From contig NZ_CP011308.1 in the NCBI RefSeq assembly GCF_000987835.1, forward strand, positions 1,798,001 through 1,862,000: a DNA stretch of 64,000 nt, read 5' to 3'. The position numbers and the translations under genes are program-made. Under the pieces are notes generated by a model. The model ran no database searches and was not told the origin of the DNA. It was given only the letters and a program-made list of their open reading frames with translations. Below, piece after piece: positions 4,456 to 37,248 of this stretch (the first letter of the stretch is position 1; every line of letters begins with the position of its first letter). This stretch comes from Sulfurovum lithotrophicum. GTDB lineage: Bacteria > Campylobacterota > Campylobacteria > Campylobacterales > Sulfurovaceae.

Positions 4456-6018
4456 TTAATTAGTCAACCCTGAAAAACCTACTTCTCAGATAAGCCAACT
4501 ATTCTATACCATCAATTCTACCACAACCTATAAAGCATCAGATTCAGATAAAGATCAGCATATTTTCGTCTTTCCTCTGCTCTAATATGCAACATAAAGT
4601 AAGTGAAATAGGTGATTTTGACTAAAAAAAGTACCATCAAGAAGTGGTTCATCCACTTCTTGAGGTTGAATGCAGCTGCAGCCAGTAAAAGATTGATCTG
4701 ATCGCCTATGAAGCCTTTCAGATAGTTCCTTTGCATCCTGTGGTCTGATTTTACATGACCAATGATCGGTTCAATGGCAGCCCGTCTTCTAAACTTCTTG
4801 CGCTTTTGTTCTTTCTGGTATTTGGTATCCCTTTTCTTTGGGCTATCAGGGATACAGATAGCTGTACCGTTTACTTCTTTCTTCCCACGATATCCTCTGT
4901 CACATATTGCTTCTATGATTGGTTTTGTTCTGTGTTTGTTTGCGTGAGCCAGTGCAGCTTCGAGTGTTTTGGAATCATGTTCATTCTTTTGGTGTGCCGT
5001 AACACCGATAATAACGTTACTCTTCATGGTTGTGACAAGTGAAGCTTTGGTTCCATACTCATATTTCTTATGGTCTTTGCCTTTTGCTATGGCATAGATA
5101 TGACTTTCATGAAGTGAGTAAACTTTATTGCTGTCTTTTCTTTTTTGATTGATCACTTTTGTATAGAGATCAAATGCCTCTTTGTGTTTTTCAAGTTGTG
5201 CATCATTTAGGTTTCTTGAAATATCCCTGATAAGAATACCAACAATGGTTCCAAGTCTTTTCATGGCAGCTCTGGCTTTCTTGATCTTCTTTGGATGTCG
5301 GAAGAATCGAAGGGAAATCCTGTGTCCTTTAATTTCCTTGACATAGGTTCTTCTTAACTGTATCTTCTCTTCTTTGGCAATCTTGTGTAGATGATGGATC
5401 ATCTTGATAGCCAGTTTCCCATCTGTGGGGTATGTGACGTTCTTTTCTTGTACAGTGGTATCGATGATGACCTGTTTCTCCTGGGCATCTTTACCGTGCA
5501 GTGCAACACTCATTGCAAAGATCGACTCTACGCCTTCTGTTCCGATACGCTGACGGAACTTGACCAGTTCTGTTGCATCACAAGGCAGTGCCGGAACATA
5601 TTCTGTCATACCGCAGAAGTATTGGTAGTAAGGATTGCGTTTCCATTGTAGAACCACATTCTCATCAGAGAGATTCTCCAACTGTTTTAACAGCAGCAGT
5701 CCGACCATCAGGCGTATTGGCTTTGCCGGTCTTCCTTCATCACTGTAATATTTGGCAAAGGATTTATCGAAGAATTCCCAGTTTATGATATCTGCAAGGG
5801 CAATGAGAGGATCATTTGAATCCAGCATATCTCGAAGCTGAGAATGAAAAAGATTGAGTTGAGTATTTCTAGAAGACTGTGGAAGCAATTTTAACACCTG
5901 TTTCGACCAGGAAGTGACCCGTTTTAGTATGTTTATTGGTTGTTATTATACCCCTTTTATCGCTTCCAAAGTACCTGTTTTAGGGGAGTGTTTGGGTTTT
6001 TCAGGGGTGACTAATTAA
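4456..6018 (-). mobile_element. IS5-family-like insertion sequence with 25-bp terminal inverted repeats
   Basis: Terminal inverted repeats lie at 4456-4480 and 5994-6018 and match at 23 of 25 positions. The outer part reads TTAATTAGTCA on the left and TGACTAATTAA on the right. Because TAATTA is itself palindromic, the junction between target duplication (TTAA, AATT or TAATTA) and element end cannot be fixed from this sequence. The element carries one full-length transposase on the minus strand. It appears intact and possibly still mobile. It sits beside the AT-rich ATPase module and inside the pair of diverged flanking repeats. Confidence 0.85.
4518..5897 (-). CDS. IS5/IS4-superfamily DDE transposase
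   Basis: A 459-residue transposase. The N-terminal DUF772-type domain is at ~20-125 (ALADIINWEFFDKSF, GRPAKPIRLMVGLLLLK). The catalytic core has D146 in VIIDTTVQEKNV, D333 in ICDRGYRGK and E376 in RRAAIEPIIGHVKSDHRM, giving the DDE triad with the YREK-like basic helix. A Lys/Arg-rich segment (~190-215) is probably DNA-binding. The length fits the group and no frameshift is seen, so it is probably active. It fills almost the whole distance between the terminal inverted repeats. Confidence 0.93.
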   Translation of the reverse strand: MLKLLPQSSRNTQLNLFHSQLRDMLDSNDPLIALADIINWEFFDKSFAKYYSDEGRPAKPIRLMVGLLLLKQLENLSDENVVLQWKRNPYYQYFCGMTEYVPALPCDATELVKFRQRIGTEGVESIFAMSVALHGKDAQEKQVIIDTTVQEKNVTYPTDGKLAIKMIHHLHKIAKEEKIQLRRTYVKEIKGHRISLRFFRHPKKIKKARAAMKRLGTIVGILIRDISRNLNDAQLEKHKEAFDLYTKVINQKRKDSNKVYSLHESHIYAIAKGKDHKKYEYGTKASLVTTMKSNVIIGVTAHQKNEHDSKTLEAALAHANKHRTKPIIEAICDRGYRGKKEVNGTAICIPDSPKKRDTKYQKEQKRKKFRRRAAIEPIIGHVKSDHRMQRNYLKGFIGDQINLLLAAAAFNLKKWMNHFLMVLFLVKITYFTYFMLHIRAEERRKYADLYLNLMLYRLW

Positions 6019-36280: not shown

Positions 36281-36377
36281 CAAAAATCTCACTTACCCAA
36301 GCTATTCATTCAAAAAATTTCTTTTCATTACACAATTTCTACATCTTCATTAGTGTATAATGTGTATAATTAAATAA
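36281..36377. other. AT-rich spacer between two repeat elements
   Basis: No gene or clear motif; the bases just right of copy 1 (ACTTAC at 36291-36296) still resemble the flank of copy 2. TGTATAAT occurs twice near 36355-36370. Confidence 0.3.
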
Positions 36378-36643
36378 GGGTACCTCTAATAACCCTAGAT
36401 ACTTATAATGGGTTTTGCAAATGTGAGATTTTGCAAGAGGCTTTCAAGTCCTAGCCAAAGCTAAGACGAAGTAAGCATCTTGTGAAAGATTACGTTTGCA
36501 AAGCCCACCCTACGGGCATCACTAGCTTTTGCCTATGCGTCGTTACTCTTTCTTGACTTAGCTACGGCTAGGCCTTCAAAAGAGTGCCTAGCCTAGACAA
36601 AAGCTAGAGATGTTATGAGCATCTAGGGTTATTAGAGGTACCC
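36378..36643. repeat. 266-bp nested inverted-repeat element (MITE-like or structured RNA)
   Basis: Perfect 23-bp terminal inverted repeats lie at 36378-36400 (GGGTACCTCTAATA...) and 36621-36643, flanked on both sides by ATAA, a possible target duplication. Internal stems: 36409-36423 with 36493-36507 (13 of 15, both mismatches G-U compatible), 36441-36446 with 36483-36488, 36522-36535 with 36594-36607 (13 of 14, mismatch G-U compatible), and 36545-36556 with 36576-36585. The fold would be a closing stem with two long branched arms. No protein frame is evident. It ends 25 nt before the thioredoxin-like gene. Confidence 0.85.
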
Positions 36644-36668
36644 ATAAATTAATCAAAAAAGGCTTTTC

Positions 36669-37187
36669 ATGAAAAAAATAATATTGTCCGTACTAATGCT
36701 ATTGTCACTTTCCACATTTTCTCAGGCAAGCAGCCAACCAGTAATGAAGATCACAGACATTAACGGTGTCACGCACCAGATCACAGGTACCGATCAGGGC
36801 TTGAATATCAAAGGACTGGAAGGCAAGATCGTCTTTATAGAATTCTTCGGGCACAGATGTCCTCCCTGTCTCGCTTCGATCCCACACCTGATCGACCTGC
36901 AAAAAAAGTACAAAGACAAACTGGCTATTATCTCTGTTGAAGTACAGGGATTGAACAATGCACAGCTTAAACAGTTCGCCAAAGAAAAAGGGATGAACTA
37001 TATTGTCGTTTCAGATGAAAAAGCAGGTAACTTCACAAACTATATTGGGCAAAGAGCGCAGTGGAGAGGGAGTATTCCTTTCATGGTTGCACTGGACAGA
37101 AAAGGTAATGTACAGTTCGTACAGGCAGGAATGCTTCCGGAAGCTTCTCTTGTGGAACTCATCAGACAACTTGATGCCATCAAATAA
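36669..37187 (+). CDS. Secreted thioredoxin-like (TlpA/ResA-type) protein
   Basis: 172 residues. The signal peptide MKKIILSVLMLLSLSTFSQA is followed by a thioredoxin fold with the active-site motif FFGHRCPPCLASIPHL (CPPC near residue 63) and the cis-proline loop GSIPFMVAL. The ResA-like ITGTDQGLNIKGLEGK strand comes before the redox site. It probably reduces periplasmic disulfides, for instance of apo-cytochrome c. It is a single gene, immediately downstream of the 266-bp nested element, which may carry its promoter or control its mRNA. Confidence 0.85.
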   Translation: MKKIILSVLMLLSLSTFSQASSQPVMKITDINGVTHQITGTDQGLNIKGLEGKIVFIEFFGHRCPPCLASIPHLIDLQKKYKDKLAIISVEVQGLNNAQLKQFAKEKGMNYIVVSDEKAGNFTNYIGQRAQWRGSIPFMVALDRKGNVQFVQAGMLPEASLVELIRQLDAIK

Positions 37188-37248
37188 TAAGTCAAGGTAA
37201 AACTTCTCTTCGTTCCTGCGAATTTGCAGGGACAAAAACGCAGTACAT

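Follow-up and report, generated by a model that had tools for sequence, protein, structure and literature searches.

A dispersed 266-bp element of Sulfurovum lithotrophicum with the ends of an IS5-family insertion sequence and a conserved two-hairpin core found across the Campylobacterales

The genome of Sulfurovum lithotrophicum (2,217,891 bp, a single contig) contains an inverted-repeat element of 266 bp, and the question it raises is whether such a structure is a mobile DNA, the source of a folded RNA, or both. The element lies at 36378-36643 of the window, by which is meant the whole stretch of 64,000 nucleotides that was analysed (positions 1798001-1862000 of that genome). Its two extremities, 36378-36400 and 36621-36643, match each other perfectly as 23-bp inverted repeats, the inverted match extends to 34 nt at 91%, and there is no ORF of at least 80 aa inside it. 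The parts of the element and its surroundings are as follows.

36340-36373, + strand: conserved TATAAT-bearing stretch upstream of the following gene, retained at orthologous sites that lack the element
36374-36377, no strand: left copy of the target duplication, ATAA, read from the sequence
36378-36408, + strand: left terminal inverted repeat, its initial 23 bp perfect
36409-36507, + strand: arm 1, a type B hairpin, folding better as the + strand, apical CCTAGCC-AAAGCTAAG
36508-36516, no strand: central mini-hairpin CCC-TAC-GGG, seen in the fold and conserved in 48 copies
36517-36612, - strand: arm 2, a type A hairpin in the reverse orientation to arm 1, its relatives folding better as the - strand
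36526-36603, - strand: core of arm 2, apical CCTAGCCGTAGCTAAG
36613-36643, - strand: right terminal inverted repeat, its final 23 bp perfect
36644-36647, no strand: right copy of the target duplication, ATAA, read from the sequence
36669-37187, + strand: thioredoxin/AhpC-TSA-like gene (Pfam Redoxin, AhpC-TSA)

When folded as RNA, the + strand reaches a minimum free energy of -141.5 kcal/mol against a mean of -68.6 for shuffled sequences (z -13.7), which together with the perfect 23-bp ends rules out a chance palindrome; the - strand reaches -131.8 kcal/mol (z -12.9). A sequence-only reading of this DNA had described a nested inverted-repeat element with two branched arms, which between them hold at least four internal helices, and a possible ATAA target duplication. 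The predicted fold and the ends agree with that description and add the 3-bp central hairpin, and ATAA is found exactly on either side. The same reading had held that every mismatch in the long stems is of the G-U kind, which it took to pair in RNA but not in DNA. The predicted + strand fold does have eight G-U pairs, but it also has A.C at 36401/36620, tandem G.A/A.G at 36427-36428/36488-36489, further mismatches of G.A, two C.A, A.A and T.C, and a 3x3 loop of G.A/T.T/C.C, so the argument is wrong as stated. Nor does its second half follow, because G.T wobble pairs form in DNA too. Rfam returned no match above the gathering cut-off for the window element or for 18 related loci, in keeping with the impression that it resembles no recognised RNA family; resemblances to attC sites and kink-turns were dropped after consideration by eye only.

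The element is far from being alone. There are 11 near-full-length copies in its own genome (261-266 bases matched, 82-100%), plus fragments, which rules out a single-copy feature. It is present in 24 of 60 related genomes, many of which are draft or metagenome assemblies, and one of the genomes (G016) carries about 20 copies that are nearly identical in sequence. Sequence alone gives a match in 52 of the 299 genomes of an order-wide sample; phages gave no match to the element, and the plasmid search gave one in a single Sulfurovum plasmid. Perfect 4-bp duplications flank about half of 88 aligned copies, as the sequence-only reading had led one to look for, and many others match at 3 of 4 positions; they include TTAT, ATAA, TAAA, ATAG and TATA, the target being A+T-rich. 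Empty sites are also found. For example, the copy L009, flanked by ATAG on both sides, corresponds to a single ATAG in genome G024 at 96% identity, and similar uninterrupted sites, with the flanks joined, exist in relatives for three other copies of the own genome (L002, L004 and L007). Orthologous sites in G014, G025, G084, G033 and G023 lack the window copy, though at 66-76% identity they are too diverged to give the exact junction. The element is thus short, non-coding and bounded by terminal inverted repeats, and its many dispersed copies, with target duplications and precise empty sites, identify it as a MITE that has moved.

Reduced and variant forms were also noticed. Perfect or near-perfect hairpins of 26-54 bp consisting of the two ends alone occur in 10 of 78 Sulfurovum genomes (G000:C1:979323-979372, 1191796-1191822 and 1079029-1079054; G024:C1:500025-500074; others), some of them with 4-bp duplications (TGAA, TATA); these may be arm-deleted derivatives or minimal mobile units. 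Solo ends lacking a partner are likewise found, for example at G000:C1:904919-904944 (L026) and 1524325-1524357 (L023), and several lie just upstream of genes. A sub-family in G018, G022 and G008 (L369-L388) has the ends TGAACCCTCTGANTAACC with no clear 4-bp duplication, and is perhaps served by another transposase.

The ends of the element lead to its partner. An IS5-family insertion sequence of about 1.25 kb with the ends GGGCACCTCTAAAAACC occurs in Campylobacterota and beyond. The ORF of a complete IS, at L111:637-1890, matches NF033581 with 259 bits, where the cut-off is 140, and carries DUF772 and DDE_Tnp_1; in the Sulfurovum genome G088 the left and right parts of the IS lie on two contigs, each flanked by ATCA, and an internally deleted copy in G024 has ATAT on both flanks. 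The right end of an IS relic in G011, GGGTACCTCTAATAACCCTA, is identical to the initial 20 nt of the window element, and in Sulfurovum and Sulfurimonas the ends are common to the MITE and the autonomous IS. The ends of the element would hence be the substrate of an IS5-family DDE transposase acting in trans. A match to a known IS end had been named beforehand as a refuting observation; it applies in part, to the ends, where it points out the mobiliser and leaves the finding standing. The element is not an internal deletion derivative of the IS, as side-by-side similarity stops after about 20 nt. No such IS5-family transposase was found in the own genome, so the family there would be orphaned or historical and may no longer move. 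The window itself contains, at 4456-6018, a complete DUF772/DDE IS (459-aa ORF at 4518-5897, - strand), whose 24-nt ends bear no relation to those of the MITE; it was rejected as the mobiliser for that reason. Most other DUF772 elements of the genus are without MITE ends.

Whether the folded interior is maintained was addressed with 48 copies below 95% identity, with shuffles and slid alignments as controls. Standard pairs occupy 98.1% of the pair cells, and change on both sides is seen at 39 of 90 pairs, against 20.2 in shuffles (0 of 500 reach 39) and 12-14 in the slid controls, though the copies share ancestry and the changes counted are not independent events. Compensatory cells number 332 against 89; every helix is involved except the central 3-bp one, and 18 of the compensatory pairs are inside the arms. 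The structure of the element is thus conserved, with covariation above controls as in a structured nucleic-acid family, and the possibility of a lone copy without covariation, which the sequence-only reading had raised against itself, is set aside. Within young clusters the change is 0.017 at paired arm sites, 0.068 at unpaired sites and 0.040 in the ends; that paired arm sites vary about four times less than unpaired ones, and also less than the ends, is supporting evidence only, because the unpaired class was partly picked for variability. Adjacent pairs change jointly near the ends (columns 16-20), and palindrome correction at the level of DNA could account for some of the compensatory changes, chiefly those of the ends.

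The core is not confined to Sulfurovum. In other families of the order, some genomes match the apical part of arm 2 only, some of them as inverted pairs about 100 bp apart, and these loci are laid out as ends, arm, CCC-NNN-GGG, inverted arm, ends. In distant loci the lower stems are rewritten yet paired and most of the apical CTAGCCGTAGCTAA persists; when 23 type A arms are aligned, 22 of 27 pairs show compensatory change and the loop motifs CNAGGC and AACG are near-invariant. A covariance model (R1), whose E-values are rough, finds matches in 67 of 200 Campylobacterales genomes and 24 of 70 genera, with up to more than 20 per genome, and an inverted second match adjoins the first in 33 of 43 loci. 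The covariance model matches in the window element are at 36603-36526 (- strand, 94 bits) for arm 2 and at 36429-36487 (+ strand, 30 bits) for arm 1. Two-arm spans cluster at 266-276 bp despite differing ends, the end types being GGGCACCTCTAA.AACC, TTATCACCGCACCAA, ATTACTCCACCGAC, TAAGTAATGAGGCATAAAT, TAGACTTCTTGCRAAACC and TAAGTCCTTAGTCAAG; a one-arm element has the ends AGTACCTTGCCATAAT. The two-arm elements with TTATCACCGCACCAA ends are multi-copy with spans of 272 bp (L439-L468, in G146, G206, G238 and G227), and G146 alone has 51 matches to this end; no transposase that could represent its partner IS was recognised in the retrieved loci. The two-arm core is therefore a portable module combined with several unrelated transposon ends. 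One-arm versions of the module, 162-177 bp long, were also seen within the terminal repeats of other end types (L399:320-481, L416, L431).

The wobble pairs of the core depend on the arm in which they lie. In register-unbiased counts over the whole strand, G-U departures occupy 25 columns and A-C departures 21 when the structures of both strands are taken together, and the changes number 51 versus 63, so a whole-strand G-U bias was rejected as proof of RNA. G-U is found mainly in arm 1, and the departures of arm 2 across copies are mostly A-C on the + strand. Among diverse relatives, the type B arm in the window + orientation has 16 G-U columns and 1 A-C column and folds better in that orientation in 21 of 21 cases, whereas for the type A arm it is the opposite (-) strand that gives the better fold, in 22 of 24. 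Among young copies, G-U departures outnumber A-C departures 14:10 in arm 1 but are outnumbered 5:18 in arm 2 (Fisher p 0.017), and the ends stand at 16:19; the division into arms was introduced post hoc, prompted by the opposite leanings and the better reverse-strand folds, and the polarity p-values of 0.017-0.019 ignore shared ancestry, so they are indicative. From this division each arm seems adapted to single-strand folding in its own polarity, with the ends behaving as double-stranded DNA. The G-U argument for RNA thus falls for the strand as a whole and survives in modified form, as a wobble polarity that runs in opposite directions in the two arms.

These observations bear on two other explanations. 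An ordinary palindromic MITE might keep its stems by template-switching palindrome correction, with no selection on any folded molecule, as the joint changes of columns 16-20 and the ends without wobble bias would suggest. However, specific mismatches and loop motifs persist in subfamilies with rewritten stems, the wobble polarity is arm-dependent, and the inner arms are less variable than the ends. Pure palindrome correction accounts for some block changes near the ends and not for the conserved mismatches or loop motifs, and as a full explanation it is improbable. The strongest rival is recognition of the hairpins as single-stranded DNA or cruciforms, in which an HUH/RAYT-like enzyme, a recombinase or a nucleoid protein reads each arm on its own strand; we regard it as a tentative alternative. 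The two strands of a cruciform would account for the opposite polarity of the arms no less well than RNA would, G.T is the better-tolerated mismatch in DNA as well, and the same core occurs with several end types. A further suggestion, that this recognition aids replication-coupled spread or the exchange of ends, is held with similar reserve. Against recognition as single-stranded DNA, to our knowledge IS5-type DDE transposition has no folded single-strand substrate, and no associated gene came to light in a search that did not extend to HUH/RAYT neighbours.

The genomic location of the copies bears on transcription. All 46 copies examined in three genomes are intergenic, with some predicted ORF ends running briefly into the element, and these copies follow no rule for the orientation of flanking genes (tandem 25, divergent 13, convergent 8), nor is there a fixed gene neighbourhood across the copies examined. 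The window copy is inserted between the conserved TATAAT region and the start codon of the thioredoxin-like gene, which makes transcription across it plausible; the region at 36340-36373 may act as a promoter, judging from its sequence and its retention, and a consensus scan gave no promoter match there. Downstream of the same gene, at 37202-37232, lies a small palindrome-like sequence, CGTTCCTGCGAATTTGCAGGGACAAAAACG, reminiscent of CGTC-tagged REPs. An independent gene for a noncoding RNA of some 266 nt, spread incidentally by transposition, would agree with the strong structure on both strands, the order-wide conservation and the lack of an Rfam match. However, no sigma-70-like promoter beyond chance was found inside the element, its single terminator-like site is near chance, the neighbourhood is not fixed, and the arms favour opposite strands, so that no single 266-nt transcript suits both; such a gene is very improbable.

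The reading that we prefer, with a probability of roughly 80%, is that of a MITE mobilised in trans by an IS5-family transposase and carrying a strand-oriented two-hairpin core that would serve as a structured leader or spacer RNA. The IS5-family DDE transposase would act on the ends, and insertion duplicates 4 bp of an A+T-rich target. The two hairpins of the core are inverted, facing copies with a common apical stem-loop, each seemingly suited to one strand, arm 1 to the + strand and arm 2 to the - strand; because the arms are inverted, a read-through transcript from either side would carry one hairpin in its preferred polarity. As a leader or spacer, the core RNA might be bound or cut by a host protein, and this could render intergenic insertions tolerable or even useful, which would explain the core outliving its ends and occurring with different ones. 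The earlier proposal of a MITE encoding a structured RNA is accordingly retained as to the MITE, by its copies, duplications and empty sites, and as to the conserved structure, by covariation; we infer both what the core does and the choice of RNA over single-stranded DNA as its folded form. The odds stand about even that the core is a previously undescribed, order-wide structured module of RNA or single-stranded DNA that outlasts any single transposon and, through its inverted and strand-polarised hairpins, is usable in either orientation; such a module would exchange its terminal repeats and therefore its transposase too.

MITE interiors are normally regarded as disposable filler. The interior of this element is more constrained than the transposase-binding ends, with structure and loop motifs conserved order-wide. 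It offers a concrete example, open to experiment, of selection acting on the folded interior of a non-autonomous element, for which nature already supplies many compensatory variants. It also provides an annotation-ready family, absent from Rfam, for Campylobacterota genomes.

Several known systems may be compared. The IS5-family IS (NCBIfam NF033581; DUF772 and DDE_Tnp_1) shares with the element a 20-nt identical end in the Sulfurovum copy and a 4-bp duplication, whereas the element is 266 bp long, has no transposase gene and has an interior unrelated to that of the IS. By its logic, the closest known MITE is RUP of Streptococcus pneumoniae, a short intergenic MITE that shares its ends with IS630-Spn1 (PMC2229807); RUP differs in its length of 107 bp, its TA target, its other transposase family and in that no two-arm core is described for it. 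ERIC, NEMIS/Correia and YPAL are intergenic MITEs whose long stem-loop transcripts can affect neighbouring mRNAs (PMC2229807). The RNA-structured intergenic character of ERIC and NEMIS is like that of the element, but all three are unrelated in sequence, shorter and, by the description of that review, single end-to-end stem-loops without arms. CIR elements of Caulobacter and Brucella have two long hairpin arms and a linker (PMC2229807), a two-arm fold like that of the element; however, they lack closing terminal repeats, and the GANTC of their loop is not seen in the apical loops of the element. GTAG and CGTC REPs have been reported in Sulfurovum NBC37-1 (PMC3733652), and REP/BIME systems with a RAYT likewise place inverted hairpin pairs in intergenic DNA. 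REPs are 20-40 bp long with a tag at one end and tyrosine transposases for GTAG repeats, whereas the element carries GTAG in an apical position, has arms of about 100 nt and is partnered by a DDE transposase; a REP identity was rejected on its arm length and the position of GTAG. No description of the two-arm family was found in the literature searched, and the novelty lies in the fixed two-arm core, common to the whole order and to several end types.
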